From Desmodesmus armatus (taxonomy: Eukaryota; Chlorophyta; Chlorophyceae; Sphaeropleales; Scenedesmaceae): a DNA stretch of 64,000 nucleotides. Every line of letters starts with the position of its first letter. Position 1 is the first letter of the stretch. The position numbers and the translations under genes are program-made. Of the stretch, positions 12,696 to 61,470 are shown piece after piece. The stretch lies in contig VIIQ02000656.1 in the NCBI GenBank assembly GCA_007449985.2, forward strand, positions 1-64,000, given 5' to 3'. The notes beneath the pieces are model-generated. The model was not told the origin of the DNA. It did not search any database and was given only the letters and a program-made list of their open reading frames with translations.

Positions 12696-13951
12696 CTGGG
12701 GGCGCCTTGGCTGACTTGTGATCATGGCAAGGTTGGTTGGGTGTACTGCTTGAGCAGTTGAATGTGAAACACACTCACAGAACAGCAGTTGTTTGTAACT
12801 GACAGTTGCTGTGTCGCATTGGCAGCCGCTCACTTCATCACTGTGTTCCTGGATTTCCAGAACAATCGCACCCAGCCCATGCCTGCCGATCAGAGCAATG
12901 AAACAAGCGCTCATATCATGTTACAACGACCCAACACCACCTCAACTAAATGCTGCATGCATATGCCTGTCTGCACTGCTCACACACCTCAACAAATCCA
13001 ACTCAGCCCTTGACAGAACAGGTCACAGGTGCAAAATTGTCATGCCATGCACAGCCTGAAATTTCCAGCTAGCGTATGCAAGCTCCCCAGCAGCAGCTAC
13101 TGCTGCATGGTGCTCGGATGGCTGCATGCACCTGCTGCTGCTGGCCAGCGCACACCGGCACACACACACGTGCCTGTGGTCAACCCCACCATGCAGCTGC
13201 TAGCGCCTCTTGATTAGCGCCTCGCCAGCTGAGCCCACAGCCACTAGCAACTCTACAGCTTGTTCCTTACACCATTACACCTTGTACACAGTTGCTGCAA
13301 GGTGCTGGCTTAGCTGGGTGCGCCAGCTGCTGCTGATTAACACAACACAGCCCGGTGGCCTGCATCTGCCTTCCAACTGAGCCGGCCGCGCTCTGTGCAC
13401 CAGGCCCGCTGTGCCCACCGACAAACAGCAGCACGCAGCTGCTGCCGTTGCAAGCATGCTCAAGACACCTCCCGGTAACAGGCCCCACACTGGCTCACAC
13501 ACAAACCTTCGCATCTGCAGCCGCTTGGTGAAAGCAGCACCACTGCGCCAGAAGCCTTGGGTGACTGTGCCGGCGACTGCTGGTGCGTTGCTGGCCTGGT
13601 GCTGTGCTGTTCCACAATACACCCCTGCCATCCATGGAAGCTTGCTGCTGTCTTCACTGCACCTCTCCCTCTGCTCCTGTGGCTGCTGCTCACAGGCCTG
13701 AGCCCCGTCTCTCCTTCACGCCAGCGAGCGTCTGCCGCTGGCCATCACACACGGGGTGTGCTGAACCCCAGCACCATGCAGCTGCCGGCGCCTCACACTG
13801 CCCCACCAGCTGAGCCCACAGCCACCTGCAAACTGTTTACGCCAGCAGGGCGTCTGCCGCCTGCACCTCATTCACGCTGTTGCTCCTGTGGCGGCTGCTG
13901 ACAGGCCTGAGCCCTGTCTCTCTCTTGCGCCCTGTTGGCGTAGAGAGAGAC
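12696..13951. other. Intergenic 3' flank of NDC80 with echoes of its last exon
   Basis: No gene recognised. Two partial copies of the NDC80 terminal-exon edge lie here (about 13835-13890 and 13715-13750), with the same gccagcagggcgtctgccg text. A looser ~130-bp duplication links 13120-13265 with 13730-13840 (shared: caccatgcagctgc, cagctgagcccacagcca). TTACA (TGTAA on the gene strand) occurs at about 13268-13279 and may mark polyadenylation, but it is ~680 nt from the stop codon. Confidence 0.55.
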
Positions 13952-15152
13952 CTATGCCAGCAGGGCGTCTGCGGCCTGCACCTCGTTGGCGCATGCGCCC
14001 ACCCTTGCGCTGAGCTCCTTGATGCCTGTGCGCATGCTGGAGGCGTAGCCCAGCAGCATGTCTGCTGCAGCCATCACGCTGTGGTTCAGCTCATCAACCT
14101 CCTCAGCACAGCGCCTGAAGGGGCAGCAAGCGGCAGCAGCAGCAGCAGGCGGCGGCAGAGCAGGCTGTGAGCTACAATATATTTTGGATGGAGTTCTGTG
14201 AGGCACACTGTCCGGACCAGCTCGATATACCCCCCCTTACAAGCGCCAACAACCCTTCACGTATCCCAACCATCCTGGAGGGGCAGCAGGAGGCAGCAGC
14301 AGGCGGCGGCAGCAGCAGGTGGCAGCAGCAGGGCTCTTAGCACAGATGAGTACAGTGACGGGGGCCACAGCCACATCCTTTGCACTAGCCAGCAAGCGGC
14401 AGCAGCAGGCGGCGGCAGAGGCAGGCTGTGAGCCATGACAGGTTTGTATGGTACTCCGTGAGGCAAGGAGCAGCAGCAGCAGGCGGCAGAGGGCAGGCTG
14501 TGAGACATGTCACTATTAACTTTGGTATCCTGTGGGGCACCATGAACGACCTTGCAGTGCCCCCATACAAGCCCCAACAACCATTTGGATACCCCAAACA
14601 TTCTCACTGCTGGGCCCCATCAGTGTCGAGACGCGCGGTGGCATGCACTTCCTCTGTCTCCACCCAAGGGCAGGTCCTTGTTCATGGCCTGTGCAGGACT
14701 CTCAGCACAGGCCAGCACAGTGACGAGGGGCCAGAGCCACATCCCCTACACTAGCCAGCAAGGCCCACCGAGCGCGCCAACTTGTGCACAAGCAACTCCC
14801 AGGTCAGATTCATGGGCAACTCAACCCAACACCGCCTGCCGACTCCAGCGGCCCTGCCCACCTCCTTGCCACCCCGTACTCTGCCGCCGCTGCCGTGAGT
14901 GCCCAGGTCGGATCCATGGACAACCCAACCCAACACCGCCCGCTCTAGCTGCCCTGCCCACCTGCTTCAATCCCCTCCTTACATGACCCTCACACTGTCC
15001 CTCAACTCCACTGTCCCCCCCCCCGCATCGAGCTGCCGTGCCTACCTGCTTGCCGCCTCATACTCTGCCGTTGCTGCCCTGAGTGCCTCCTCAGTCTCTG
15101 TCACCTTGTTGACCAGGGCGTTGCGCAGGCACAACACCTCACCCTGACGCAC

Positions 15153-15186
<34 letters not shown>

Positions 15187-18100
15187 AAGTGCACGGCCAT
15201 GGAACACACACAGCGCAGCACACACACAGGTCAAAAGGAGCCGCATGTGCTGACCACTTCAAGCTGCAGTGTTGCAGGAGCAGGCACAGACATCACTCCG
15301 CCCAACTCACACCACTTGCGCCTCCCACTGCTGACGCTGTCACTCAACCTCACCAACACTGCCCACACGCGGCCCAATCGCATCGACCCAATCGCATCGT
15401 GGAACACACCACCCACAGCTGCCTGGTGTTACTCACTGACCTTGATCCTGTCTGCCTGGCCCCCTATTGAGGCCACGTCAACCTCCAGGGCCTCCTTCAG
15501 GCCGCGGTGACGCTCCTCAGCAACAGACACCTGCACAGCACACACATCAGCACATTGTGGTCACCGACAGCATCCACATGCAGCATCTCCAATCCTCAGA
15601 GCTATCTGCAGGCACACACCGCGCACTGCCAGAGGCAATACACCCACCCATCCGGCAAACATACCCACACCCACCCGTCCCCCCCACACACTGTTTGCTA
15701 TCCTATCCAAGTTGGTCTGCCTCATAGATTGCTTGCATGTGACTGCATGTTCATAGTATGCTAGCTACACGTCTATCCTTTTGTTTCAAGGTTCCATCCA
15801 TCATCTATGCCAAACACACACGCACCTGTCGCCTGAGTGCAGCCAGCTCCTCCAGCCGCTCTGCGTTGCCCTCACGAGCAGCGTCCAGCTGCTCAGCCAG
15901 CACCAGGCCGTCCTCCGCCAGCTCACGGCCCCGCAGCCGGTAGCGCTCACGCAGCGACAGCAGACCCGGCCGGATCACACCTGCGGTGAGTGGCAAGCGA
16001 ACAATGCGCAGCCATTCAGTCCATGGGTTTGCAAAGTAAACTTGATGCTGGCACATGACAGTTGCATGGCCCCGCAGCCGGTAGCGCTCACGCAGCGACA
16101 GCAGCCCCGGCCGGATCACCCCTGCGGTGGGGTGGCAAATCAACAATGCGCAGCCAAGCAGTCCATGGGTTTGCACTCTCAAACTGAACAGCGCTGGTTT
16201 TGTGAACTTCATCCTGCTCCCACATTGCTGTTGCTGCCCCAGTGCCGCCCCTCCTCCTCTTCAAACTTGAGTCTGGAGCGAGTCTACACAAGTTGACAAC
16301 ACAGGTTGAGTTGTCCCGCATGCACTTCCCTCTGCTGCCACACCACGTCCACACCTTGATGTCCCCGCTGATCAGCTCCTGTGGGGTAGCAGCGGCCCTG
16401 TTGACGCCCATTTCGTAGGCGATGCCTGACGCACGCTTGGCTGCCGCCGGCAGCAGCGCCAGGCGGTGGCAGCAGGCGTGGTACTGCCGCAGCCGCTCCT
16501 CCAGGCCATTCAGCACGGACTCAAGCTGCAGGACAGAAAACAATCAGCAACACACAGTTCAGGACGATCTTGAGGGGTGGGATTAGAATGTGCTTGCAGC
16601 TACCGGGCAGCCGATCCTCTAGGCCATTCAGCACGGACTCAAGCTGCAGGACAGAAAACAAAACAGTTCAAGACAATCTTGAGAGGAACATCCTCAGGGG
16701 TGGGGTGAGAGTGTGCTTCCAGCTACTGCGCAGCCGCTCCTCCAAGCCGTTCAGCACAGACTCAAGCTGCAGGACAGCACACACAGCACAGCGATTCAGC
16801 ACAGACATGAGCTGCGGACGACACGCACGGCAAGGTAGATCCGTGCCACACGCCCTTGGGCATGTACAGTATGTGGGGTCCTTTGCTTTTGCTCTCCCCC
16901 ATCTGTGGAAACGTGATGGCCTGGGGTGTAATGCGCTCGCAGCTACTGCGCAGCAGTTGTGCCTTTCCAGCTGCTCGTAAGTGAACAGTCCACAGCCACA
17001 TGCAGCAGCGTCACCCGACGTCACTGCATCGGCGGCGGCGTTGCTGTTGGCCGGCAGTCCCAGCAGCATGCACACCTGCACTTCAGCTTGGTACAGCCGC
17101 TGCTGCAGGGCCTCCCGCTGCGACACCACGCCGTCCAGCAGACTCTTCTGCTTCTGCCTGTGGCAGCAACAGCGCACAGCAACACACGCAACACATGCAT
17201 GGCCGCACCCACTGGCTGTAACACCCGTCCAGCTGTCTTTCTGGCAGCATGCGCACGCATCACGGAATGGCACATGCACGCCACAGCAGGCGTAGAGAGC
17301 ACCAGGCATGCCTGCCATGCTGTGACCACAGCCTGGTGGGCGCGAACCAGCAGGACCATCTCAACACCCTTCCTGACCCTATCAAACATGGCGCAGCTGC
17401 AGCCTTGTTGCCCTGTTGGCACAAGACATGATTCACTGAGTGAGGTCTCTGCGCATAGGATTCCGTCGCGCCTGCGCACCTCTCCGCCACCATCCTGTTG
17501 ACGTCAGCCTTGCTGAGCGCTTGGCCAGCAATGCGCTGCGCCAGGCTCACGTTGTCTGCAGCAACAGCAAGGCGCAGCAGCACAAGTGAGGCAGCAGGGC
17601 ATTGCATGCACACACGCATCTACCTGTTCTATGCAACTCATGCGAGTTGCTTGTGGGTCTATACCCCCCGGCGCTTAGCCGCAAAACTGCTGTACAGTCC
17701 CAGGACCCCCCCCCCCCCCGGGTCGGTCGCTTGTAGGTTATACCCACCTGCGCGCACTGCCATACGGCTGCGCATGCCGCATTTTCAAATCACCTCTGCC
17801 AATTGCTGTGCTGGCACATACCCAGCTGTGCGCACTGCGGCAGTGCTGCCATCCGATTGCTGGCCATGTCTCGTCACATGCTGGTCTGTGCACACTTGTC
17901 AGTGCGTGGCAAGGGTTCACCCAGGCGCCCGCTTGTGCGCACTGCTGCTGCTGCTGCTGCTGCTGGCATCTATCGCTGCCCACATGTCGCTGCATCTGTG
18001 ATCTTTGCACACGCTTGCCGCTGCTGTCCAGTCACCCACCTGCACGCACTGCTGCCATTCCTGCCCTCTATTGCTGTCCATATGTCACTGCATTTATCAT

Positions 18101-20070
18101 GTGCCATGTAGACACCCACCTGCACGCACTGCTGCCAGTGCTGCCTTCTTTGCCTCCAGGTCAGCCTGGCGCTCCTCCAGCTTCTTCTGCAGGCTGGCTC
18201 GCTGGGCCTGCACAGCACGGCACAGAATGCACACCACAGCACAGCATGGCACGGCATAGCTGGGTGACTTCACGGTGTGTTTTTGGGCCCTTTAGATGGC
18301 GTACAGGTGGGGTGTGCTACTGCTGTAGTTCTGTACAGGGTTCACTGCTCACATGTGGCGCACTGTGCGCAGACTACTGAAGTCATGCACAGACACGGCA
18401 GGATGCGGGCGCCAGCAACTTGTGATGCGGGCGCCAGCAACTTGTGATGCGGGCGCCAGCAACTTGTGATGCGGGCGCCAGCAACTTGTGAGGTGCCCAC
18501 GTCGCATGCGCCCAACTTGCACTGCTCAGCCATGAGGCAATTTGTGGGGTGCGCGCGCCCCATCCTGCGCCCCATTGTGCGCGCCCAACTACTACTCCCC
18601 AAGCAGCAGTTCGTTCCGCCGCCCCCTCCCCCCCCCCTCACACACCAAACACCCACCTGGTTTCCTGCGATGACCTCCTGGAACTTGCGCTGGTCTGCCA
18701 GCACCTCCTGCCTGGCTGCCTGCGCTGCTGCAAGCGGCGAGGGCTGCTTGTGCAAGCCGTCCAGCTCAGCACACAGGGAGCCCATGGACTGCAGGGGCAG
18801 CAGGAGGTACAGACGGAGAGAAACACACATATTCGGCATCATGATCATGTATGTTCATGCTCTATGCAACTCATGTGTTCAACACATGACACAACTTTGG
18901 ATGGTTGATGCATTGGCTGGATGCACTTCCTGTGTCAACTCACGGACAGGGCAGCGCAGGAGACGTGGGGCAGGGGTGGCACAGTGAGCCACAGCGGCGG
19001 GAGCAGCACATGCATGGGGTTGCAGGACGCAGGCGCGCAAGAGCAGCACGCAGCGCTGGGTGTTCCTGCATGCAGTTTGTTGTGGGGCATGTGTGTTTGC
19101 GGGACGTTTACTGTGGCCTGTAGCACAGACTGGGTGCCGCAGATGCTCAAGATGTCTGACAGGGCCAGCACTGCCTTGACCATTGCTGCTTTGTGCGGGC
19201 ACCTTGCTGCTGCATGAGCATAGCCCCTGCAGTGCATGTAGCTGAGCTCCGATTGCGAACCCACAAGCTTCAAGCCCCCCAGTCACTCGGCACCCCGCGC
19301 ACCTGCTGCAGCGTTTTGTTGCTCTGCAGGAGTGCTGCATGTCGCTCCCTGAACTGCCCCAGCATCTCGTCATCAGCTGCACCTGCCTTGGCATCATCCC
19401 CCGCCAGGAAGTACCTGTAGGCTGTCGATGCATACGAGAAGAACTGCCGCTCGCTGCGCTGCTTCTCGTCAAACTGCGCTGCTGTTGCATCCTCTGCCCT
19501 GTCGTCGTAGTTGAGCAGCTCCACCAGCCAGCTGAGTGCTGCCAGCACACTGGGCCAGGAGTGAGGGCTGCCGACTGCAAACAGGGCGCTCTTGCTGATC
19601 TGGAAGGGGTAGTTGAGGCGCTTGAAGAACAGCGGCACCTCATCCTCCACTTTGCCAAAGGCCTTGAGGGTGGGGTCGAATCGCTGGAACAGCCAGAAGG
19701 CCAACTGCGTGAAGTCCTTCCCCGTGGGAGAGGTCAGGATCTTGGGGGACAGCGCGTAGGGGTACGCGTGTGTGGAGGCATAGGTGATGATGGTGCGGAT
19801 GCAGCTGTTGAAGAAGTTCTTGTCATTCAGGGGCCTGGGGTCTGCCTTTGCATTGCCGCTCTTGCCAAAGGCACTAGATCGACGTGGGTCTAAGCCAGCA
19901 TTGGAGGGGCGCTCTAGCTGCCTGGGTGCCACTGAAGGCCTGCCTGCTGCTGCTGCATGGGGCTTCAAGCTCTGCCTGCTGTCTTTGCCGGCCTTGTGCC
20001 CTGGTGCTAAGCTCTGCCTACTGTTGAGGTTGTTGGGACTCAACGCCCCCAGTGTCTGCCTTCTGCTCAT
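13952..20070 (-). CDS. NDC80: NDC80/HEC1-like outer kinetochore protein (10 exons)
   Basis: Microtubule-binding subunit of the NDC80 kinetochore complex, acting at the spindle-kinetochore interface. Exons (gene order): 19303-20070, 18657-18788, 18120-18207, 17480-17555, 17076-17157, 16355-16525, 15826-15980, 15441-15530, 15046-15143, 13952-14114. All have GT-AG borders and matching phases except the sixth-seventh join, which is one base off. The ~607-residue product compares with 642 for human HEC1. Residues 1-75 are a basic Ser/Thr-rich tail. Residues ~78-188 are the calponin-homology domain (DKNFFNSCIRTIITY; EVPLFFKRLNYPF; VGSPHSWPSVLAALSWL). Later exons are Glu/Gln/Leu-rich coiled coil aligning in order with HEC1 segments. 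The start is ATG at 20070; the frame continues upstream only from non-ATG codons. Introns contain tandem copies of exon edges. Identification is by pattern, without a search. Confidence 0.9.
16068..16778 (-). repeat. Exon-edge echoes around NDC80 exons 6 and 7
   Basis: The 5' edge of exon 6 with its CTGCAG acceptor recurs upstream at about 16600-16657 and 16725-16778, in ~115-125 bp units that include intron sequence; a further piece lies near 16924. The 5' half of exon 7 with its CCGCAG acceptor recurs at about 16068-16170. The copies are partial exons without matching donors. Confidence 0.8.
17735..18075 (-). repeat. Donor-side echoes of NDC80 exon 3
   Basis: The 3' edge of exon 3 (real edge at 18120; + strand text cacccacctgcacgcactgc) recurs at about 18036-18075, 17930-17975, 17815-17860 and 17735-17775, progressively diverged, in units of roughly 85-110 bp. 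The nearest copy keeps a consensus GTGGGT donor. Confidence 0.75.
18402..18492. repeat. 22-bp tandem repeat, 4 copies, in NDC80 intron 2
   Basis: Four near-identical copies of gatgcgggcgccagcaactt plus two bases. Each contains the palindrome ggcgcc. Confidence 0.9.
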
Positions 20071-20408: not shown

Positions 20409-23400
20409 TCAAGAAGCTGGGGCCATGGGGTTGCCAGCAGGCACTCCCAACACGCTGCTGTCCACCCAAAAGTCCTTGCTGGGGTACCTGCCCTGTGCTG
20501 TCTGCAGCAGCCGGTGCAGCACCTCCAAGCACCAGCGCCTGTTCTCCTCACGCGTGGGGAAGCGATCACAGGCAATGGTCAGGTCGCCTGTCTTAGCGTT
20601 GTACCTGCACCACATCAGCAGCAGCACCCACAAGCCTTCAGCGATTGCAAGCACTTGCCCAGCGTAGTTCACCTACAGGACAGAAGACCGAAGGGCAGCT
20701 GCAGCTGCAGCTGCCGACGCATGCGCAGGTTTCCCACAGGCCATGGCAACCACCCTGACGTTGCTTCTATCACAGTACACTGGCGCCCCTGCATCATGCA
20801 TGAGGATGGTCCTCATGCTGCTGCGCTGCGCACCCCCCTTCATTCAGCCTCACATTCCCCAGCCACTGAGAGCAGATGCTGTAGTCCCCCCCCCTCCCCG
20901 GATGCACAGCGGAAAACACACCCAACATAAGCAAGGTACATGTTCAAACATGCACACGCCCATACAACGCATGGGCTTCATTATATTCTATTATTTGTAT
21001 ATATTCTTTGTGTATGAAATAGAATAGAAACCCACAGCCCTGCTGCCACCCAGCCATCATGACCTTTCTCCCGCCCCTGCCAGCAGGTATTAATAAGCAT
21101 TGCTCTGCGCTTGTACATGGATTGCCATTGAGGTGTTACACGAAGAAAACGCCGATCGGCGGAAAGTCAACAATAAGGAGAGAAGAAGAAAGAAGAAGAA
21201 GTGCAAGACAGGGCAATGCAGGCCAGAGGCCAAACAAAGGGCGGGAAGGGAGGGCGAGTTGTTGTCACACACGTGTGAACAACAACAAAACGTGCCCTGC
21301 CAAGGGCAGGGCCAGAGTATATCATGCTAGGAGCAGCATGAGCACTCCAGGGCTTAGTGGGCCCAAGCCCTGGATGCATCAGCCCGCTAGCTGATTAACG
21401 CATGTTAATACATTATCATGCTATCAATAAGCATTGCTCTGCGCTTGTACATGGATTGCCATAATAAGAGAGTAGATAGGAGTGGCACACCCGGCAGTCG
21501 GTGCGCCACAACTTGTGAGGCTGCAAAGCACAGACAAGGGGAATGCAGCAGCCCATGCACGTAAGAAGTGCATATGCATTGGGCACACATCAGATGCATA
21601 GGACAAGCAAGTGTTGGGCTCACCAGCACGCATCCGTACAGCAGGCTGGTTGGACAAGGCACAGTACCCAAGACCCAGCCACAACTGCCACAAGGTGGCC
21701 AAGAGGGAGCACTCACAGGTGCCGAGATAAGGATGTAAAGGCGCAACGGCCTGGAGCTGCCCAACCCACCGGAATGCATCAGAAAACCACGGCCCCTGGG
21801 GGGGGGGGGGCAGCAGAACTAGACTGGGAGCCTAGCAGGCAGCAAGCAGTAGCGCGGCCAATGACCACAACTGCCACAGCCACACACAAGAGTGTAGCAG
21901 GGAGGCATTAAACTGGAAGCATAATAGATCATTAAACAGGTGGCTGAGGCAGCTCAAATCAGCAGACAGATCGTGGTCACGCATCCGGGCACTACTCTAG
22001 AGCAGTACACAAGGCGGGGTTGGCAGCACAAGGCAGTGGTGCTCAGAGGGAGGGCAGCAATAGTCATGCATTGCTGCGCACAAACCAACATACGCAAATG
22101 GGTGGCACTAAGGAGAACAACACACCCAGGGGTGTGGACACGGTATGGCGCATGCCATGCCAATGCCGTTGCCAACTGCCTAAGATATGCAAAGTGTGCG
22201 ACGGGAGGTCAAGGTCGCGAGACGTACAGCAATGCCTGTCACTGCCAGAGCACAATCACCTGAGCCAGAAAACCAGGAAAGTGCTACAGCACACGGGCTC
22301 AGTGTAATTTAGCCAGTGTGGCACGACGGGGCAGGTCACACAAAAGCGCAGGCTCGCTACAGCACAGATACTACGATTGTCATCAGAGTGAGTGACTGGC
22401 AACCAGCATACGAGCACATGGGCTCTGTTTACCAACAAGAGCAGCACCCAGGGCTGCCAACATAAGGCAGCACAACACCCGAAGGTGAATTTTCTGTGCG
22501 CTGCTGTAAGCTGCACCAACAGCAGCACCAGAGCGTAAGGGCTCAGTGCATAAAAGCAGCGCATCAGGCGCTGAAGAGGCCAAAAGCCAGGCTGAGCGGC
22601 ACTAGGAAGCCGCACCAGCAGCGCCACCAGAGCACATGGGCTCAGTGCGTAAAAGCAGCGTATCACGCACTGCAAAGGCCAAAGCCCAGACCAACAACAA
22701 GCCAAGCCAGCTCAAGCCCCAACAGAAACCACAAGCACAGAGTCCCTTTGATGCTGCAACACAACCCTTGGTGGGCATACTGTATATGCGGCTCAGTGAA
22801 CAACGCGCACAGCCATCATAGGCCAAGACGCCTTGGGCATATGCTGGGCAGACCCAGCTGATCCCAGGCTGAAGGTGGCCTGAGGAAGGGCCACCGTATC
22901 AGCGGCCAACAACATAAGCTCATGGTACCAGGGCTGGGAGGGCCAGCAGGGCACCAGCAGAGTCACAGTGGCGCGATCCTCACGGATCTTCTGCACCACT
23001 TGCAACAAGATATTGGTTTCCAAAGGGGGGTTTGCAAACCCATTAAGACCCTGCCATGACTGTAGGAATGCATTGACTCCACTGCTGCCAGGACACCGAT
23101 GCAGGCTGAAAAACCTAGGCAAGTGCGTGTTGGTGTCCGAAGCAAACAGATCCACATCATGGGGCCCCCACAACACATCAAGGCTGGCAAAGACGCTGCC
23201 GTCGAGCCTGTAGTCGCTGCGGTCCAGAGCACGGGACGGCGCGTCAGCCAAATTGTGCTCAAAGGCTACACGCACCACCTGAAGCTGCACATGCAGCTCA
23301 TCCAACAAGGCCCACAGGTGGCGGTACTCAGTCATCAACACAGGCGAACGCGATGCAAACCGGCCCAACACTGACTGCGTGACAGAATTGTCCTCATGCA

Positions 23401-25730: not shown

Positions 25731-25799
<69 letters not shown>

Positions 25800-28783: not shown

Positions 28784-28814
<31 letters not shown>

Positions 28815-33920: not shown

Positions 33921-33969
<49 letters not shown>

Positions 33970-38907: not shown

Positions 38908-38957
<50 letters not shown>

Positions 38958-39004
38958 GGTGACTCCAGCCAAGATCTATCTTTTCCCCCTCCCCTCCCCC
39001 CCCC

Positions 39005-39040
<36 letters not shown>

Positions 39041-39561
39041 ACCACCACTACTCTCCAGAGCCTCTCAAAGGGCTGCATCCGGCCCAGTTCGGGTGCAGCC
39101 CCTGCACACCACTGCTACTTGCTGCTGCTAGTTGCACTGCTACCTAACTGCATCTACTTTCACTGCTAACTAGCTGCTACTATTGCTGCTGCTTGCACTG
39201 CTGCTGCTGCTGCTGCTACTGCAGTTGCCCCAGGCCAGATGCCCCGCCCTCCCCACTCTCTCACTGTTGAGGTCCTGTAGGGGGACTGCACCCAGCCACA
39301 CAGTGCGCACAGCCCCTGCACACCGCTGCCATCTGCTGCTGCTGCTGCTGCTGCTGCTGTGATCCCAGCCATGACCACTCACCCCCACTTTCGATCCCCC
39401 TCACGTGCACGCATGTTCCACGCTCTCCCACGGGACTGCATCCAGCCCCACAGTGTGTGCGCCCCTGCACATCATCACTCACTCACATCTGATTCTACTG
39501 CTGCTACTTCACATCTGATTCTACTGCTGCTACTGCACTTACCCTAGCCCCCCTTCAGCCC

Positions 39562-39592
<31 letters not shown>

Positions 39593-40409: not shown

Positions 40410-40442
<33 letters not shown>

Positions 40443-44470: not shown

Positions 44471-44477
44471 GAGCGAG

Positions 44478-47400: not shown

Positions 47401-50400
47401 CGCTATCCCAGCAGCAGCAGCAACAGCGGGTGCAGGGGTGGTGGCGTTACAAAGCACTGTGCCTGGTGTACTTGTATGAGTGGTTTGCTTACCTTCCTCT
47501 GCCAGGTACTGGACAGCGCTATCCCAGCAGCAGCAGCAACAGCGGGTGCAGGGGTGGTGGCGTTACAAAGCACTGTGCCTGGTGTAATGGTATGAGTGGT
47601 TGCCTTACCTTCCTCTGCCAGGTACTGGACAGCGCTATCCCAGCAGCAGCAGCAACAGCGGGTGCAGGGGTGGTGGCGTTACGAAGCACTGTGCCTGGTG
47701 TAATGGTATGAGTGGTTGCCTTACCTTCCTCTGCCAGGTACTGGACAGCGCTATCCCAGCAGCAGCAGCAACAGCGGGTGCAGGGGTGGTGGCGTTACGA
47801 AGCACTGTGCCTGGTGTACTGGTATGAGTGGTTGCCTTACCTTCCTCTGCCAGGTACAGCACAGCGCTATCTCAGCAGCAGCAGCAACAGCGGGTGCAGG
47901 GGTGGTGGCGTTACAAAGCACTGTGCCTGGTGTACTGGTATGAGTGGTTGCCTTACCTTCCTCTGCCAGGTACAGCACAGCGCTATCTCAGCAGCAGCAG
48001 CAACAGCGGGTGCAGGGGTGGTGGGGTTACAAAGCACTGTGCCTGGTGTACTGGTATGAGTGGTTGCCTTACCTTCCTCTGCCAGGTACAGCACATCGCT
48101 ATCTCAATAGCAGCAAACAGCGGGTGCAGGGGGGTGGGGTTACAAAGCACTGTGCCTGGTGTACTTGTATGAGTGGTTGCCTTACCTTCCTCTGCCAGGT
48201 ACTGGACAGCGCTATCCCAGCAGCAGCAGCAACAGCGGGTGCAGGGGTGGTGGCGTTACAAAGCACTGTGCCTGGTGTACTGGTATGAGTGGTTTGCTTA
48301 CCTTCCTCTGCCAGGTACTGGACAGCGCTATCTCAGCAGCAGCAGCAACAGCGGGTGCAGGGGTGGTGGGGTTACAAAGCACTGTGCCTGGTGTACTGGT
48401 ATGAGTGGTTGCCTTACCTTCCTCTGCCAGGTACAGCACAGCGCTATCTCAGCAGCAGCAGCAAACAGCGGGTGCAGGGGGGTGGGGTTACAAAGCACTG
48501 TGCCTGGTGTACTGGTATGAGTGGTTGCCTTACCTTCCTCTGCCAGGTACAGCACAGCGCTATCTCAGCAGCAGCAGCAACAGCGGGTGCAGGGGTGGTG
48601 GCGTTACAAAGCACTGTGCCTGGTGTACTGGTATGAGTGGTTGCCTTACCTTCCTCTGCCAGGTACTGGACAGCGCTATCTCAGCAGCAGCAGCAACAGC
48701 GGGTGCAGGGGTGGTGGCGTTACAAAGCACTGTGCCTGGTGTACTGGTATGAGTGGTTTGCTTACCTTCCTCTGCCAGGTACTGGACAGCGCTATCCCAG
48801 CAGCAGCAGCAACAGCGGGTGCAGGGGTGGTGGCGTTACAAAGCACTGTGCCTGGTGTACTGGTATGAGTGGTTGCCTTACCTTCCTCTGCCAGGTACAG
48901 CACAGCGCTATCTCAGCAGCAGCAGCAACAGCGGGTGCAGGGGTGGTGGGGTTACAAAGCACTGTGCCTGGTGTACTGGTATGAGTGGTTGCCTTACCTT
49001 CCTCTGCCAGGTACAGCACATCGCTATCTCAATAGCAGCAAACAGCGGGTGCAGGGGGGTGGGGTTACAAAGCACTGTGCCTGGTGTACTTGTATGAGTG
49101 GTTGCCTTACCTTCCTCTGCCAGGTACTGGACAGCGCTATCCCAGCAGCAGCAGCAAACAGCGGGTGCAGAGGTGGTGGGGTTACAAAGCACTGTGCCTG
49201 GTGTACTTGTATGAGTGGTTGCCTTACCTTCCTCTGCCAGGTACTGGACAGCGCTATCCCAGCAGCAGCAGCAACAGCGGGTGCAGGGGTGGTGGCGTTA
49301 CAAAGCACTGTGCCTGGTGTACTTGTATGAGTGGTTTGCTTACCTTCCTCTGCCAGGTACTGGACAGCGCTATCCCAGCAGCAGCAGCAACAACGGGTGC
49401 AGGGGTGGTGGCGTTACGAAGCACTGTGCCTGGTGTAATGGTATGAGTGGTTGCCTTACCTTCCTCTGCCAGGTACTGGACAGCGCTATCCCAGCAGCAG
49501 CAGCAACAGCGGGTGCAGGGGTGGTGGCGTTACGAAGCACTGTGCCTGGTGTACTGGTATGAGTGGTTGCCTTACCTTCCTCTGCCAGGTACAGCACAGC
49601 GCTATCTCAGCAGCAGCAGCAACAGCGGGTGCAGGGGTGGTGGCGTTACAAAGCACTGTGCCTGGTGTACTGGTATGAGTGGTTGCCTTACCTTCCTCTG
49701 CCAGGTACAGCACAGCGCTATCTCAGCAGCAGCAGCAACAGCGGGTGCAGGGGTGGTGGGGTTACAAAGCACTGTGCCTGGTGTACTGGTATGAGTGGTT
49801 GCCTTACCTTCCTCTGCCAGGTACAGCACATCGCTATCTCAATAGCAGCAAACAGCGGGTGCAGGGGGGTGGGGTTACAAAGCACTGTGCCTGGTGTACT
49901 TGTATGAGTGGTTGCCTTACCTTCCTCTGCCAGGTACTGGACAGCGCTATCCCAGCAGCAGCAGCAACAGCGGGTGCAGGGGTGGTGGCGTTACAAAGCA
50001 CTGTGCCTGGTGTACTGGTATGAGTGGTTTGCTTACCTTCCTCTGCCAGGTACTGGACAGCGCTATCCCAGCAGCAGCAGCAACAGCGGGTGCAGGGGTG
50101 GTGGCGTTACAAAGCACTGTGCCTGGTGTACTGGTATGAGTGGTTGCCTTACCTTCCTCTGCCAGGTACAGCACAGCGCTATCTCAGCAGCAGCAGCAAC
50201 AGCGGGTGCAGGGGTGGTGGCGTTACGAAGCACTGTGCCTGGTGTACTGGTATGAGTGGTTGCCTTACCTTCCTCTGCCAGGTACAGCACAGCGCTATCT
50301 CAGCAGCAGCAAACAGCGGGTGCAGGGGTGGTGGGGTTACAAAGCACTGTGCCTGGTGTACTTGTATGAGTGGTTGCCTTACCTTCCTCTGCCAGGTACT

Positions 50401-53400
50401 GGACAGCGCTATCTCAGCAGCAGCAGCAACAGCGGGTGCAGGGGTGGTGGCGTTACAAAGCACTGTGCCTGGTGTACTGGTATGAGTGGTTTGCTTACCT
50501 TCCTCTGCCAGGTACTGGACAGCGCTATCCCAGCAGCAGCAGCAACAGCGGGTGCAGGGGTGGTGGCGTTACAAAGCACTGTGCCTGGTGTACTGGTATG
50601 AGTGGTTGCCTTACCTTCCTCTGCCAGGTACAGCACAGCGCTATCTCAGCAGCAGCAGCAACAGCGGGTGCAGGGGTGGTGGGGTTACAAAGCACTGTGC
50701 CTGGTGTACTGGTATGAGTGGTTGCCTTACCTTCCTCTGCCAGGTACAGCACATCGCTATCTCAATAGCAGCAAACAGCGGGTGCAGGGGGGTGGGGTTA
50801 CAAAGCACTGTGCCTGGTGTACTTGTATGAGTGGTTGCCTTACCTTCCTCTGCCAGGTACTGGACAGCGCTATCCCAGCAGCAGCAGCAACAGCGGGTGC
50901 AGGGGTGGTGGCGTTACAAAGCACTGTGCCTGGTGTACTGGTATGAGTGGTTTGCTTACCTTCCTCTGCCAGGTACTGGACAGCGCTATCCCAGCAGCAG
51001 CAGCAACAGCGGGTGCAGGGGTGGTGGCGTTACAAAGCACTGTGCCTGGTGTACTTGTATGAGTGGTTTGCTTACCTTCCTCTGCCAGGTACTGGACAGC
51101 GCTATCCCAGCAGCAGCAGCAACAGCGGGTGCAGGGGTGGTGGCGTTACAAAGCACTGTGCCTGGTGTAATGGTATGAGTGGTTGCCTTACCTTCCTCTG
51201 CCAGGTACTGGACAGCGCTATCCCAGCAGCAGCAGCAACAGCGGGTGCAGGGGTGGTGGCGTTACGAAGCACTGTGCCTGGTGTAATGGTATGAGTGGTT
51301 GCCTTACCTTCCTCTGCCAGGTACTGGACAGCGCTATCCCAGCAGCAGCAGCAACAGCGGGTGCAGGGGTGGTGGCGTTACGAAGCACTGTGCCTGGTGT
51401 ACTGGTATGAGTGGTTGCCTTACCTTCCTCTGCCAGGTACAGCACAGCGCTATCTCAGCAGCAGCAGCAACAGCGGGTGCAGGGGTGGTGGCGTTACAAA
51501 GCACTGTGCCTGGTGTACTGGTATGAGTGGTTGCCTTACCTTCCTCTGCCAGGTACAGCACAGCGCTATCTCAGCAGCAGCAGCAACAGCGGGTGCAGGG
51601 GTGGTGGGGTTACAAAGCACTGTGCCTGGTGTACTGGTATGAGTGGTTGCCTTACCTTCCTCTGCCAGGTACAGCACATCGCTATCTCAATAGCAGCAAA
51701 CAGCGGGTGCAGGGGGGTGGGTTTACAAAGCACTGTGCCTGGTGTACTTGTATGAGTGGTTGCCTTACCTTCCTCTGCCAGGTACTGGACAGCGCTATCC
51801 CAGCAGCAGCAGCAACAGCGGGTGCAGGGGTGGTGGCGTTACAAAGCACTGTGCCTGGTGTACTGGTATGAGTGGTTTGCTTACCTTCCTCTGCCAGGTA
51901 CTGGACAGCGCTATCCCAGCAGCAGCAGCAACAGCGGGTGCAGGGGTGGTGGCGTTACAAAGCACTGTGCCTGGTGTACTGGTATGAGTGGTTGCCTTAC
52001 CTTCCTCTGCCAGGTACAGCACAGCGCTATCTCAGCAGCAGCAGCAACAGCGGGTGCAGGGGTGGTGGCGTTACGAAGCACTGTGCCTGGTGTACTGGTA
52101 TGAGTGGTTGCCTTACCTTCCTCTGCCAGGTACAGCACAGCGCTATCTCAGCAGCAGCAAACAGCGGGTGCAGGGGTGGTGGGGTTACAAAGCACTGTGC
52201 CTGGTGTACTTGTATGAGTGGTTGCCTTACCTTCCTCTGCCAGGTACTGGACAGCGCTATCTCAGCAGCAGCAGCAACAGCGGGTGCAGGGGTGGTGGCG
52301 TTACAAAGCACTGTGCCTGGTGTACTGGTATGAGTGGTTTGCTTACCTTCCTCTGCCAGGTACTGGACAGCGCTATCCCAGCAGCAGCAGCAACAGCGGG
52401 TGCAGGGGTGGTGGCGTTACAAAGCACTGTGCCTGGTGTACTGGTATGAGTGGTTGCCTTACCTTCCTCTGCCAGGTACAGCACAGCGCTATCTCAGCAG
52501 CAGCAGCAACAGCGGGTGCAGGGGTGGTGGGGTTACAAAGCACTGTGCCTGGTGTACTGGTATGAGTGGTTGCCTTACCTTCCTCTGCCAGGTACAGCAC
52601 ATCGCTATCTCAATAGCAGCAAACAGCGGGTGCAGGGGGGTGGGGTTACAAAGCACTGTGCCTGGTGTACTTGTATGAGTGGTTGCCTTACCTTCCTCTG
52701 CCAGGTACTGGACAGCGCTATCCCAGCAGCAGCAGCAACAGCGGGTGCAGGGGTGGTGGCGTTACAAAGCACTGTGCCTGGTGTACTGGTATGAGTGGTT
52801 TGCTTACCTTCCTCTGCCAGGTACTGGACAGCGCTATCCCAGCAGCAGCAGCAACAGCGGGTGCAGGGGTGGTGGCGTTACAAAGCACTGTGCCTGGTGT
52901 ACTTGTATGAGTGGTTTGCTTACCTTCCTCTGCCAGGTACTGGACAGCGCTATCCCAGCAGCAGCAGCAACAGCGGGTGCAGGGGTGGTGGCGTTACAAA
53001 GCACTGTGCCTGGTGTAATGGTATGAGTGGTTGCCTTACCTTCCTCTGCCAGGTACTGGACAGCGCTATCCCAGCAGCAGCAGCAACAGCGGGTGCAGGG
53101 GTGGTGGCGTTACGAAGCACTGTGCCTGGTGTAATGGTATGAGTGGTTGCCTTACCTTCCTCTGCCAGGTACTGGACAGCGCTATCCCAGCAGCAGCAGC
53201 AACAGCGGGTGCAGGGGTGGTGGCGTTACGAAGCACTGTGCCTGGTGTACTGGTATGAGTGGTTGCCTTACCTTCCTCTGCCAGGTACAGCACAGCGCTA
53301 TCTCAGCAGCAGCAGCAACAGCGGGTGCAGGGGTGGTGGCGTTACAAAGCACTGTGCCTGGTGTACTGGTATGAGTGGTTGCCTTACCTTCCTCTGCCAG

Positions 53401-55040
53401 GTACAGCACAGCGCTATCTCAGCAGCAGCAGCAACAGCGGGTGCAGGGGTGGTGGGGTTACAAAGCACTGTGCCTGGTGTACTGGTATGAGTGGTTGCCT
53501 TACCTTCCTCTGCCAGGTACAGCACAGCGCTATCTCAATAGCAGCAAACAGCGGGTGCAGGGGTGGTGGGGTTACAAAGCACTGTGCCTGGTGTACTGGT
53601 ATGAGTGGTTGCCTTACCTTCCTCTGCCAGGTACTGGACAGCGCTATCCCAGCAGCAGCAGCAACAGCGGGTGCAGGGGTGGTGGCGTTACAAAGCACTG
53701 TGCCTGGTGTACTGGTATGAGTGGTTTGCTTACCTTCCTCTGCCAGGTACTGGACAGCGCTATCCCAGCAGCAGCAGCAACAGCGGGTGCAGGGGTGGTG
53801 GCGTTACAAAGCACTGTGCCTGGTGTACTGGTATGAGTGGTTGCCTTACCTTCCTCTGCCAGGTACAGCACAGCGCTATCTCAGCAGCAGCAGCAACAGC
53901 GGGTGCAGGGGTGGTAGGGTTACAAAGCACTGTGCCTGGTGTACTGGTATGAGTGGTTGCCTTACCTTCCTCTGCCAGGTACAGCACATCGCTATCTCAA
54001 TAGCAGCAAACAGCGGGTGCAGGGGGGTGGGGTTACAAAGCACTGTGCCTGGTGTACTTGTATGAGTGGTTGCCTTACCTTCCTCTGCCAGGTACTGGAC
54101 AGCGCTATCCCAGCAGCAGCAGCAACAGCGGGTGCAGGGGTGGTGGCGTTACGAAGCACTGTGCCTGGTGTACTGGTATGAGTGGTTGCCTTACCTTCCT
54201 CTGCCAGGTACAGCACAGCGCTATCTCAGCAGCAGCAGCAACAGCGGGTGCAGGGGTGGTGGCGTTACAAAGCACTGTGCCTGGTGTACTGGTATGAGTG
54301 GTTGCCTTACCTTCCTCTGCCAGGTACAGCACAGCGCTATCTCAATAGCAGCAAACAGCGGGTGCAGGGGTGGTGGGGTTACAAAGCACTGTGCCTGGTG
54401 TACTGGTATGAGTGGTTGCCTTACCTTCCTCTGCCAGGTACTGGACAGCGCTATCCCAGCAGCAGCAGCAACAGCGGGTGCAGGGGTGGTGGCGTTACAA
54501 AGCACTGTGCCTGGTGTACTGGTATGAGTGGTTTGCTTACCTTCCTCTGCCAGGTACTGGACAGCGCTATCCCAGCAGCAGCAGCAACAGCGGGTGCAGG
54601 GGTGGTGGCGTTACAAAGCACTGTGCCTGGTGTACTGGTATGAGTGGTTGCCTTACCTTCCTCTGCCAGGTACAGCACAGCGCTATCTCAGCAGCAGCAG
54701 CAACAGCGGGTGCAGGGGTGGTGGCGTTACGAAGCACTGTGCCTGGTGTACTGGTATGAGTGGTTGCCTTACCTTCCTCTGCCAGGTACAGCACAGCGCT
54801 ATCTCAGCAGCAGCAGCAACAGCGGGTGCAGGGGTGGTGGCGTTACGAAGCACTGTGCCTGGTGTACTGGTATGAGTGGTTGCCTTACCTTCCTCTGCTA
54901 GGTACAGCACAGCGCTATCTCAGCAGCAGCAGCAACAGCGGGTGCAGGGGTGGTGGCGTTACGAAGCACTGTGCCTGGTGTACTGGTATGAGTGGTTGCC
55001 TTACCTTCCTCTGCTAGGTACGGGACAGTGCTATCCCAGC
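44478..55040. repeat. 116-bp satellite array, about 91 copies, with 8-mer and 16-mer higher-order structure
   Basis: Each unit has a CAG run, caacagcgggtgcaggggtgg, acaaagcactgtgcctggtg, tactggtatgagtgg, and cttaccttcctctgccaggt. Variants (tactgg/tacagc/tatagc; cccagcag/ctcagcag/ctcaatag; tttgctt/ttgcctt) recur in register. The variant containing acatcgctatctcaatag occurs at 46246, 47168, 48093, 49018, 49828, 50751, 51676, 52599 and 53986, mostly 922-925 bp apart, i.e. every 8 units. A larger 1848-bp period is visible (49447, 51295, 53143). Because 116 is not a multiple of 3 and units have few stops, long spurious ORFs appear on both strands; I do not consider them genes. Each unit carries AAG|GTAAGG, a perfect 5' splice site, on the minus strand. 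Confidence 0.95.
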
Positions 55041-55684
55041 AGCAGCCCCCCCCCCCCCCGGGTACACGGCCTGGGCAACACACACTTTTTGGGTCCGGCT
55101 GGTTGCCAGCGGTGTCGCAGCCTGCTGCACACCGTGCGGGTCCGATTCCCGCTGTTCCCTGCACATGTCACACATTCAAACCTGCCCTGGTAGCAATGCC
55201 CAACCACAGTCTGACAGAAATACCCCGGCTGCATATATCTGCAGCACGAGGTTGCCTACTGTGTGGGTTGCTGCAGCTTTCAAGCGCAGCAACAGCGACA
55301 TGCACTCACTTGCTCAGGTGAACTAGCATCCTTGCGTGTTCAGCTTGACCCCTACATCTGCAAGCGCAGCTTACAACATGGAAAATGACTATGCCACTTT
55401 GCTTCCATGTCCACACTGAGAGCTGAACCGACGTCTAAGTCTAATCAGACAACAATGCATGCAGCAAGAAGTGACCAGCGCTCAACATTGGCTAGCGCTC
55501 CTGAATTGATGCATCACAGCGCAGCGGCAGCAGGGGTCTCAGCAGCAACACTGCCCCTCCAACAGCTGCAGCACCGCCCCTCCTGACGGCATCAACATAC
55601 GCATTATTGTTTGGTGTCAACCATCCCTGTCAACCGCCCCTCACCGTTGTTTGATTCATCCTGCTGCATGCAACCAACTCAGTG
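55041..55684. other. Flank of the satellite with sequence shared with 42930-43060 and an echo of the ADP-ribosylglycohydrolase last exon
   Basis: 55070-55135 nearly matches 42945-43010 (ggttgccagcggtgt; cctgctgcacaccgtgc). About 55500-55600 resembles the 3' end of the exon at 55752-55947; a similar block lies at about 40690-40930. No intact gene. Confidence 0.6.
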
Positions 55685-55689: not shown

Positions 55690-55751
55690 TTCCCCTCCTG
55701 AGGCAACACAGTAAATATCAGAACCAAAAAACAGCAACACGACTTGCCGCA

Positions 55752-57448
55752 TCACAGCGCGGCAGCAGCAGGGACCTCAGCGCCAGCAGCAGCATCCCCA
55801 CCAGCAGCAGCAGCAGCCAACACAGCATCGACAAAGGCATCAATCTCCTTTCGGATGTTTGCTGAATCAGCCAGCCCTGTGATCAGCCGCTCAGGGATGC
55901 CACTCTCACCAGCTGCTGCACCCATGATGGCCCCGAGGGCGGAACCCCTGAACGCAAGCAGGATAACGAGAGCAGAACCAGACGTCAGTGGGTTTGTTTG
56001 GGAACTTGCATGCCGGTGCGCCCATGACACGCGCATATGTGTCAAGCAGTAGCCGCAGCAGCAGCAGCAGCAAGTACAGGCCGCTGTGCCCACGAAGGGT
56101 CCGAGGGCAGAACCTCTGAGAGCACAAGGGAGATGGTACGGCAGCGCCACCACACATCAGGGACGCGTTTGAAAATTACTGCACTGCACTGCCGCATGTA
56201 CGGCACTTTGATGTTGCCTGTAAAGCCACTGCGGCCCGTGGCAGTACCGCACTGTACTGTGTCTGACCTGTACTACACCTGAGACCTGATGAGCCTTGAA
56301 GAAGGCGAAACTAGTCGTCTGTAAGTTCGTTCACTCCACACGCACAATACAATCCGCCTGCTGCCTGGTCGCTGGTACTTCCCACATTGTCTGTACAACC
56401 GCAGGCTGCACTGTGCTACACGACCAGTACTGCACTGCACTGTGACCCCTACTGCACGCTGAAACCCTAATACTTCTCCACTGCCTTCCCTCACCTGTGG
56501 CAGTTCTCTCCCCCCACGTTTGTGTTGGCCAGCACTGCCTTCTCAAAACTGCCAGCGTACTTCCACGACAGGTAGAGCACTGACGGCCTGCAGGGGCACA
56601 GGGCAGCGGGATTTGTGTGTCAGACACCACATGTGTGTGTGTGTGTGTGTGGGGGGGGGGGGGTAGGTGCCCTGCACTCATGCAGCTTGAGTCAGGCCCT
56701 CAGTTTGGGACCACACAAATGCCATTTAGTGCACAGTGATGTAGGGGGAGGGCCGTAGGGTGCCAGCACTGCCTTCTCAAACTGTCACTGTGACGGTCGT
56801 AGTACTTCCACGACAGGTACAGCACGGACGGCCTGGGGGGGGGGGGGGTGTAAGACACATGGACAGTGTGTGCTTTTGGGGGGTCAGGTGGGGTGGGGGA
56901 GAGTGTCTGATGCCCCGAAGAAGGGGGGGGCATGTGCAGATGCACTGCACTCATGCGGCATGAGGGCCTCAGTTTGAGACCACACAACTGTCATCAGTGA
57001 TATGGGAGGGGGGGTGGGGGGGTCAGCACTGCCTACTCAAAAACGCACCATGAGTCTTCAATGTAGTAGGCGCTGCCAAACACCCCGTGCACGATGTTGA
57101 CGTCATTCTAGGCCTTGTCAGCCCAATGGGGGGGGGGTATTTATGGGGGGTGGGGGGTGGGGGTGTTACGGGGGGTTTAAAGGGGGGGAGTAAGAGAGAG
57201 GGGGGGGGGGCGTGCTCAGGAATGGTGGGGTCAGGAAGGGACACTCCCACACACGCACCATGAGTCTTCAATGTAGCAGGCGCTGCCAAACACCCATGCA
57301 CGATGTTGACATCGTTCCAGGCCTTGTCAGCCAGCTCCTGGGGGTTGAACCGCACACGACGGGCCTCAACAGCAGCAAGGTCCTTCAATGGCTCACCCTA
57401 CAGCAGCAGTAGCAGCAGAAGAAGTGATGATGGCAGAGGGAATGTATA

Positions 57449-57479
<31 letters not shown>

Positions 57480-60400
57480 TCCTTCCACGGTTTACCCTAA
57501 AGCAGCAGCAGCAGCAGCAGCAGCAGTGATGATGGCAGAAGGGATGCAGGAGCAGCAGCAGCAGCAGCAGGAGCAGCAGTGATGATGGCAGGGCGCAGGT
57601 GGCAGCGGCAGCAGCAACGGCAGTGTTGACAAGACATGAAGAGATAACAAAGGAGATCATAAAGGCCGCACACACTGCCACGCTCGGCAGATTTGCACGA
57701 GTGGGGAAAATGGTCCGTAGGCCTGCACAGACGATGTGCACACCCAGCCGCTTTGAGTCGAAGGCAGCCATTCCTTGCCCCGGCGCAACTGCTGGTCCTT
57801 TCATCATCACTGCTGGTAGTTCAGTCGGTAGTGCAGTGCAGCCTCCCCCCCCCCCCACGACTACGCTCTATGTTACCACACACCCCAAACCCCATGACGT
57901 TCACCCCCCCCCCTTTAACCAGTGCAACACTTTCCAGCAGCTGTGGATGTCTGTCTCGCCACTGCTGCCAGCTCCCCGCTGATGCTGCTGCTGCTGCTGA
58001 CTCCCCCCCCCCACAGTCTTAATGAGCTTGCATGTATCCAAATACTCCCTCTGTCGACACACGCACACCAACACAAACACCCCCCCTTCCCCCCCCCCCC
58101 CCCCATGCCTCACCAGTGCCACCCGTGCCAGCAATTGTGCATATCTGTCCGCCACTGCTGCCAGCTTCTTGCTGTCATGAGTGCAGCCAAGGTGAGTCAG
58201 CGCTGCCTTGGCAGCAGCAGCAGCAGCCGCATCATTGCTGCCACACGCCTGCTGGTCCACACTGCTGCCACTGCTGCCAGCCGCCGCTGCTGCTGCCACT
58301 GCTGCCATGATGACGGTGGCAGCATTACAAAGCCGCCGATTTGGGCGGTGTTGTGGCCCTCAGTGCCCTGCGGGGGCCAAGCAGTTATAGACACAAAGTT
58401 TGAAAAGCAGTTGCAGACGGCTATTAGCCACTCCCACACACCCTCGGCAGCAGCAAGCACCTACACAGCTACTGTTACAAAGTTGCATCGTTGAAAAAAC
58501 ACCATCTGCAGCTCACTGGTGTATTTCTTCTGCTGCATGCATATTGCCAAACTGATGAGGGCTGCTGTTGCTGTTGGGGAAGCCCGGGGGGGGGGGGGTG
58601 TGTCAGCGCGTGTGTGTGCGTGGTGTGGGAGGAGAAATGTGGTATGAATGGTGTCAGGACGGTGTTGAAGGGCTAGGCAAACGGAGGAATGCATACATAG
58701 ACATGTATGTGCATGAACACACATGTACTGGGCTCCTCTGCGTGCGCAGACCACACCCACGCACCCATGCGACAACCCCCCCCCCCCCATCACGCCCAAG
58801 AGCTCCCCCCCTCCTCGCACACTTCTCTGCAGTGCACACGACCTCGCTCGCGCCCAAATCCATGTAACCCCCCCCCCTCCCACCCACCCCAACCGAGCGC
58901 ACTGTTCCCTGTGTACCTCAGCACACTTCTCTGGCGGCACTCCGCTGCCCAGTTTTTGAAGAAGTCTCTGTGGAATGACTCTGCATATGTGTCATGTGGT
59001 GTCGGGTGTAGTCATGAACTGAACGTAGTCGTCAAGGAAGGCAGCAGGGTCATACCTGATTGTGATGTAGGGGGGGGGGGAGTCAGGGTTATCAGCAAGG
59101 GCTTGAAAGGTGTGCACTAAGGCTGTTGGGGAGAGGGAGAACAGAGTGGCAGGTGGCGGAAGGGGGTAAGGAGGTCAACTTTCAAACCAACATGTCCAGC
59201 ACGCTTTGGTTCTCTTGGTGAGTAGGTGATCCACTGTGTGACCACTCTAACGCACACAGCATCGAGGTATGCCCAAGCCCAGACGCTAGGCCTAGGGTAC
59301 CCCAGGGGGGATCAAATTCCAGCAACATATCTCTCAGATGCTGCGGCAAACGGAGCCCCTCACCCTTTTCCTTGGGGCAAAGAAAAGGGTGAGGGGCTGG
59401 CACATGAGCGAGTGAGTGACAAATGCCAGTCCTGCGATACTCACCGTCCGTCTGTGTTGGTGATTGAGCGCATGACCACTCGCGCGCAGAGTGCGTTGAG
59501 AGTGTTCTCCCCCGCCTTCATGCCCTGATGGTAGTGCATGCCAGGCACACCCCAGAACTTGTGCTTGCCATGGTTGATCACGTCACCTGCAGAAACAGAG
59601 AACAGGTGGGCAGGGGAAACTGATGACTCTGTTTGAATTTGTCTTTACATGGCTATAGTATAATCAAGACACACTGTCTTGATTTGCCAGGGTTGGGACA
59701 TCATTTGACCCAATGTGGGGACTGGGGGGGGGGGGGGGGGATGAAGCAGGGCGATAGCAATGCGGCAGCATAGGTTTGTTATGGGGGGGGGGGGGGGGGC
59801 GGAGGCACTGCAGTGGTTGAGGGCAAACCCCAGAAACTTGTGCTTGACGTGATTGATCACGTCACCTGCAGGGTGTGTGTTGGCATCAGCAGAAGCAGCA
59901 TAGAGGATAGCCACTTCATTGTGGGCGACGTAACGCAAGCTCATGGCACGATTTGCCAAAAGCAGCCGCCCTACGCGTGACGAGCAGGAACCTACAGGCT
60001 GGCAGTTGCCTTGTGTGCCAGCACAAAGATCCTGGTCACATGGGAAGCACCGACCAAAATCATGGTGGACACCAACCCGCGCAATGTCAGCCAAAGACGC
60101 CCCCCCCCCCCGGGGGGACCACCAAGCCTCACCTACGATGCGTACGCTCTGGTCCCCCCTCTCCCCCCCCCCCTCTCCCCCCCCCCCTCCCCCCCCCCCC
60201 TCCTGCCCCCTCCCCGTCGGAGCCGGCCCCCACCAAGCCTCACCTACGATGCGTCCGCTCTGCCCCCCGCGTCCGTGTCCTCCTGTGTTGCTGAGGCTCA
60301 TGATGTGCTGGGGTGGCGCAGCTTGGGGGCCTGCACAGAAAAAACACAGACACAGGACCCTGTTTGTGTGCTGGCTCAATTTGTGTGCATGTGACTCGCT

Positions 60401-61429: not shown

Positions 61430-61470
<41 letters not shown>

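Follow-up and report, generated by a model that had tools for sequence, protein, structure and literature searches.

Intronic minisatellites are head-to-tail arrays of direct tandem repeats, and tandemly duplicated or mutually exclusive exons are adjacent copies of exon sequence that carry splice sites. Here we analyse bases 1–64000 (the window) of a 224,902-base contig, C624 (VIIQ02000656.1), in the 115.8-Mb, 831-contig assembly of the green alga Desmodesmus armatus. In three genes of the window, NDC80, a mitoribosomal protein gene (mS35) and an ADP-ribosylglycohydrolase gene (ADPRGH), introns contain partial copies of the edges of neighbouring exons. Like minisatellites, these copies are arranged as head-to-tail direct arrays, with smallest shifts of about 100–300 bp, but the end unit extends into the exon and bears a splice site. 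Like tandem exons, they are adjacent exon copies with splice sites, but mostly represent partial exons with a single splice site.

It is accepted that new introns can arise by tandem genomic duplication of an exonic AGGT segment (PMC3443670; Drosophila cases in PMC2891723). As in the window, the duplications described there are short, direct and touch splice signals, and splicing can hide the extra copy. In that route, however, an exonic piece is doubled and a new intron is born, whereas here an existing intron grows and gains decoy splice sites. Introners are described as giving similar introns at many loci (PMC9860276); intron sequence is likewise multiplied and splice sites are carried along, but the C624 copies are local and gene-specific. 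Short tandem duplications that include exonic sequence segregate in Drosophila (Emerson et al., cited in PMC2891723). These are also a few hundred bp long and often include some exon, but those of C624 are retained, repeated and concentrated on one contig. A general review (PMC3488318) names related work on introns derived from tandem arrays. No account of the exon-end pattern reported here surfaced in a limited literature search, and we do not claim that it is absent from print.

Exons were predicted with a gene finder written for this analysis, trained on the window together with 200 kb sampled from contig C526, and those of the three genes were hand-corrected by tblastn with algal homologous proteins (P0001–P0003 for NDC80, P0081 for mS35 and P0085–P0087 for ADPRGH); gene models beyond the window are uncurated predictions. 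The corrected models contain 10, 15 and 9 exons, respectively, giving 62 exon–intron junctions (31 donors and 31 acceptors), all on the minus strand. Each junction was represented by a probe of up to 60 bases of exon and 60 of intron, which was matched against the adjoining intron; matches with at least 10 bp on each side of the junction and E ≤ 1e-4 were counted as junction-spanning copies. Copies of an exon edge with its splice site are present at 21 of the 62 junctions (10/31 donors and 11/31 acceptors) and number 47 in the three genes, confirming the central claim of an earlier sequence-only reading of the region. As also proposed there, each aligned copy spans a single junction. The copies lie in direct orientation, and no inverted copy was found in its own intron for any of the 62 junctions.

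The copies contain both exon and adjoining intron sequence, with an intron part of up to 100 bp in the probes, and the intron therefore predates the duplication. This composition bears on a second route to the same appearance, in which an AGGT segment was duplicated inside an exon and then intronised, so that intron and exon edge were alike from birth. Intron gain of this kind has been seen in vivo in another system and is described as common by indirect evidence (PMC3443670). In a pair of copies in C526 (91500–91577 and 91597–91675, in joined-sample coordinates), a donor lies in one member and an acceptor in its partner, as that route predicts. The segment duplicated in the window is not purely exonic, however; the copies carry junction-adjacent intron sequence, so the junction came first, and an origin by intron gain appears quite unlikely for these introns.

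Transposon-made introns (introners) or dispersed repeats could also multiply splice sites, and the repeat-rich character of this contig region, together with a retroelement-like open reading frame (ORF) in mS35 intron 14, would be in keeping with such a source. The copies match only their own neighbouring exon, however, and direct copies in non-adjacent introns were found in 4 of 1748 tests, a search that covered the introns of the three genes and was not genome-wide. Similar introns at many unrelated positions were thus not seen, and we discount introners, as highly improbable, because the copies are local and gene-specific.

Grouping of self-matches yields 22 tandem families in the window genes, none of which is confined to exon sequence. 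In 19 of the 20 junction-touching families the smallest shift is 97–295 bp, and head-to-tail arrays are evident among the families (16489–16683/16607–16811, 31165–31554/31330–31716 and 26155–26695/26403–26915). Of the intron bases, the families account for a fraction of 0.33 in NDC80, 0.70 in mS35 (most of intron 14 left aside) and 0.24 in ADPRGH. As read from tblastn, homologous proteins hold the copied segment once, and such a segment matches two or three genomic places (e.g. P0001 334–348). Two regularities proposed in the sequence-only reading were not borne out. Copies were said to keep phase, but the smallest shift is divisible by 3 in only 4 of the 20 junction-touching families (counted from the family list). 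They were also said to decay with distance, but identity falls monotonically in just one of six families with at least three copies, that of mS35 exon 13 (85, 81 and 71%).

We consider it likely that repeated short-range tandem duplication on a duplication-prone contig copied DNA across pre-existing exon–intron junctions. Short direct duplications of about 80–300 bp would strike junctions that already exist. Where an acceptor is spanned, the last copy would remain joined to the rest of the exon, and where a donor is spanned, the first copy would do so. The spliceosome would presumably use the exon-attached copy and leave the mRNA unchanged, and junction duplications could be tolerated by selection for this reason; duplications inside exons would mostly be lost. 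The remaining copies would stay in the intron, lengthen it and offer decoy splice sites, and those of most families would decay. The duplications may arise by slippage, unequal exchange or microhomology-mediated repair. The junction copies and the families they form support the earlier proposal that tandem duplication across junctions made the introns of the three genes longer.

NDC80 (13952–20070; gene finder and tblastn of P0001–P0003) has exons at 19303–20070, 18657–18788, 18120–18207, 17480–17555, 17076–17157, 16355–16525, 15826–15981, 15441–15530, 15046–15143 and 13952–14114. Its homologues include P0001 (79%) and P0002 from Scenedesmus sp. NREL 46B-D3 (71%), and the joint between exons 6 and 7, as read here, is 1 base short of frame. 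Junction copies (percentages are identities) correspond to the exon 3 donor edge in intron 3 (17963–18074, 71%, with a second, weaker copy at 17742–17853), the exon 6 acceptor edge in intron 5 (two copies within 16607–16811, at 16607–16704 and 16724–16811, 81–83%), the exon 7 acceptor edge in intron 6 (16065–16175, 91%) and the exon 9 donor edge in intron 9 (14820–14903, 75%). The lists of affected exons in the sequence-only reading agree with ours, its ADPRGH numbers being the present number plus one, except for NDC80 exon 10. There, the copy (13838–13877, 87.5%) is of the coding end (13953–13992) and lies downstream of the gene model, away from any splice junction.

The largest of the three genes, mS35 (20452–39891), has exons at 39603–39891, 35934–36097, 34251–34328, 33841–33918, 33100–33457, 32227–32487, 31639–31721, 30284–30549, 29849–29952, 29144–29479, 28693–28887, 27936–28300, 26944–27145, 25997–26171 and 20452–20604. 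The name rests on Tetradesmus obliquus P0081, which carries PF10213, presumably the mS35 family. Counting against it, the draft window protein matched no Pfam family, and pieces of this protein match solved chains called mS111 and mS115. The 5′ end of exon 2 is ambiguous, as 36097 fits the phase and 36154 scores higher.

Intron 1 of mS35 holds a decayed array with copies of the exon 1 donor edge (38756–39794, about 63–75%) and a second array of about ten copies of a ~266-bp unit (36057–38658), comprising the exon 2 start and acceptor region, in which 2 of the 10 copies retain AG where the junction is assumed to lie. A ~232-bp array in intron 2 (34523–36058) contains five copies that each include the donor and most of exon 2; GT is kept in all five. 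These two different arrays meet at one point inside exon 2 (36057/36058). Further acceptor-edge copies are seen for exon 4 (33920–33968, a weak copy in CTG-repeat sequence), exon 6 (three in intron 5, 32616–33011, 71–77%), exon 7 (intron 6, 31796–31845, 82%), exon 8 (intron 7, 30722–30967, 73–86%), exon 13 (three in intron 12, 27278–27583) and exon 14 (five in intron 13, 26259–26903, 73–93%). Donor-edge copies are found for exon 7 (an array in intron 7, 31165–31554, with the best copy at 31417–31536, 74%), exon 10 (intron 10, 29028–29095, 76%) and exon 14 (intron 14, 25821–25876, 89%, with weaker copies at 21046–21091 and 20826–20887). A longer probe with looser limits adds the exon 6 donor edge (32001–32078; 70 exon bp and 9 intron bp, 85%). 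Intron 14 also contains a long minus-strand ORF (22796–24847) that by eye resembles a retroelement reverse transcriptase and is flanked by 184-bp direct repeats, 97% alike (21244–21427 and 25433–25615).

ADPRGH (55764–62069) was modelled from PF03747, tblastn of P0085–P0087, splice sites and an own-genome search with P0084, with exons at 61966–62069, 61333–61387, 60244–60333, 59445–59586, 58918–59057, 58114–58367, 57259–57397, 56495–56587 and 55764–55947. Apparent frame breaks near 60333, 58996/58943 and 57295 suggest either assembly indels or a decaying gene. Copies are present for the donor edges of exon 3 (60100–60157, 79%), exon 6 (57904–57981, 79%) and exon 7 (57015–57123, 83–85%) and for the acceptor edges of exon 7 (57466–57578, 83–85%) and exon 9 (56080–56160, 67%). 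The longer probe and looser limits add the acceptor edges of exon 4 (59822–59871; 43 exon bp and 6 intron bp, 90%) and exon 8 (56762–56897, 69%, found with the longer probe only).

The splice sites within the copies are often of near-native strength when scored with matrices built on C526 gene predictions, upholding the earlier suggestion that many decoy splice sites were left behind. Of the 18 donor copies, 16 have GT, and the mean of these canonical ones is 8.3 bits compared with 8.8 for the 31 real donors. For acceptors, AG is present in 17 of 29 copies (15 of 19 when the ten-copy mS35 exon 2 array is set aside), with a mean of 7.9 versus 8.3 bits for real acceptors. Twelve of the 16 donor copies and six of the 17 acceptor copies score at least as high as their own real site. 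With scores so near the real ones, the decoys are in general not silenced by sequence. The splice dinucleotide is unchanged in 34 of 39 pairs, compared with about 0.49 expected from nearby intron identity; we do not take this as proof of selection, because gaps in G-runs lower that identity.

The retention of splice dinucleotides and of native-like scores is what would be expected if the intronic copies served as mutually exclusive or alternative exons, or if the cell made purposeful use of them as alternative splice sites. Another argument of this kind comes from mS35 exon 2, whose five intronic copies (34615–35798) differ among themselves by 63 synonymous and 5 nonsynonymous changes (pN/pS 0.02). 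Compared with the source exon, they show 35 synonymous and 2 nonsynonymous changes; with each change counted once by hand, there are about 22 changes, of which 2 are nonsynonymous. The probability of this bias is ~5e-12 under equal rates and 8e-8 with a nonsynonymous share of 0.65. However, the copies in the window span one junction and usually hold only part of an exon, and a search for an in-phase, stop-free upstream acceptor scoring above 3.1 bits, a cutoff at the 5th percentile for C526 acceptors, found none for any of the five exon 2 copies. One of the five carries insertions of 16 and 8 bp and another a single-base gap. In the other families, without mS35 exon 2, the exon parts give pN/pS values of 0.42 against the source and, where a family has at least two copies, 0.58 between copies, not far from the decay of unused copies. 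Functional tandem exons are thus an unlikely explanation for the intronic copies.

Are exon edges special targets? Families were compared with random placements that allow for low-complexity sequence and exclude exon-only positions. In the window, 18 of 22 families cross a junction by at least 10 bp, compared with 13.1 ± 1.9 expected (P = 0.006), and 20 of 22 do so by at least 5 bp, compared with 13.6 ± 1.9 (0 of 1000 random placements). In two other stretches of C624, 7 of 12 families touch junctions versus 4.1 ± 1.5 expected (P = 0.04). Excess over shuffled positions, by which the sequence-only reading proposed that its pattern be judged, gives a mixed picture; it is moderate in the window and seen elsewhere on C624, but not off this contig: 9 families touch junctions at 12 loci on other contigs versus 8.0 ± 1.2 (P = 0.35), and 6 do so in the C526 200-kb sample versus 6.9 ± 1.4 (P = 0.84). 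The frequency of duplication in window introns is similar for interiors and edges (123 of 320 versus 21 of 62). Because interiors are duplicated like edges and the excess is absent off C624, local tandem duplication extending as far as a junction accounts for most of the edge pattern, which we read as carrying at most a modest edge bias.

Several observations weigh against duplication across junctions as we have described it. The model does not require families in the window to touch junctions beyond random placement; this excess may be a detection effect, in which copies with a constrained exon partner stay detectable longer. Exon-only families do exist outside the window, making up 3 of 15 in C526 and 3 of 15 in the 12 other loci. 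In some copies the aligned stretch is shorter than the shift (111 of 141 and 87 of 181), which means that some are not clean head-to-tail duplicates, and eight breakpoint pairs inspected by eye are without long shared microhomology. Finally, the mS35 exon 2 copies, with their nearly exclusively synonymous differences, are unlike neutral intronic leftovers.

The exon 2 pattern would fit repeated exchange between exon and copies. It is possible, though we hold the idea tentatively, that an exon end in this region forms the selected, outermost unit of a tandem array residing in the intron and keeps exchanging sequence with the intronic copies, making introns reservoirs of spare, protein-compatible exon ends. 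If so, the mS35 exon 2 array would be an exchange caught in the act, in which the copies are kept protein-compatible indirectly, by being swappable into the gene.

The duplications across junctions are concentrated on C624. When the window is taken together with two other C624 stretches (6 of 18 and 3 of 17 junctions), 30 of 97 junctions have copies. An identical test of unselected stretches of six other contigs, relying on uncurated gene predictions, gave 4 of 650: 3 of 560 in C526, 1 of 30 in C47 and none in C618 (0/10), C35 (0/20), C89 (0/20) or C75 (0/10). Of 42 junctions in seven 3-kb loci on other contigs (L002–L008), which were selected because they share a GT- and G-rich segment with a window intron, 5 have copies. 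One example outside C624 is an isoleucyl-tRNA synthetase-like gene on C434, named by eye from its translation. Copies elsewhere are thus rare but present, and the phenomenon is concentrated on C624 without being confined to it. In a pyruvate-dehydrogenase-like gene on C47 (also named by eye), an exon start and its acceptor recur downstream of the exon (L034, 9722–9805 and 9917–9991).

Intron length was considered as a cause of the regional difference and rejected, since the excess persists among length-matched introns of 450–800 bp (10 of 13 versus 1 of 33). The overall load of tandem duplication differs as well. The fraction of tandem-duplicated bases is 0.40 in the window and 0.44 and 0.30 in the other C624 stretches, and ranges from 0 to 0.13 in C526 (0.068 over 200 kb), C35, C89, C75 and C47. 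The C618 stretch (L030) has a fraction of 0.34 and no junction copies, and a high load therefore need not yield them. Edge copying as a genome-wide property is not supported by these counts. The pattern is a regional form of ordinary tandem duplication and no rule of the whole genome: a true and striking local feature whose mechanism is most likely short tandem duplication tolerated by splicing.

Mis-assembled or over-expanded repeats might in principle produce such an appearance, and the frame breaks in ADPRGH and at the NDC80 exon 6/7 joint imply that the consensus may hold indel errors; the long arrays may also be mis-sized. The copies diverge by 5–37% and have different neighbours, however, and the pattern recurs in the separate C624 stretches, all of which makes an artefact very unlikely. 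In the assembly search, NDC80 matches fall on C624 alone (1 match for exon 1 and 10 for the homologous protein P0001). As the sole NDC80 of the assembly sits on this contig, a contaminant is less likely, and a second NDC80 copy, as would be expected from a divergent second haplotype, was not found in that search.

Genome-wide protein-level searches of two families give a further view of possibly repeated exon segments, although pairs found in this way may include read-through into introns. Among the 72 matches listed for the CCT chaperonin family, two neighbouring pairs overlap by eye by at least 15 profile positions (C625 and C571). The kinesin family has 151 matches; among those listed, at least eight overlapping pairs were seen by eye at seven loci (C82, C18, C21, C545, C642, C55 and C632). 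The sensitivity of the profile approach is low, as the ADPRGH Pfam profile recovers only 1 of 9 exons on C624.

A mitoribosomal protein gene and the one NDC80 gene seen in the assembly here present a naturally occurring set of decoy splice sites, many of which score like the adjoining real sites. RNA from this alga could show how the spliceosome tells apart a true site and a near-identical copy that lies within a few hundred bases. The region is also a case in which tandem duplication, concentrated on one contig, makes introns grow rather than creating new ones, and it raises the question of what makes some genomic regions tolerant of such growth.

The best named relatives of the window genes are from Scenedesmus, Tetradesmus and Raphidocelis. 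The Scenedesmus sp. NREL 46B-D3 homologues of all three genes each list a contig with an identical length of 587,718, which suggests conserved synteny. Between mS35 and ADPRGH, a 116-bp unit is repeated ~91 times with 95% matches (44526–55046). At the start of the window, a 6.1-kb segment is repeated at 98% identity (1–6132 and 4240–10406).

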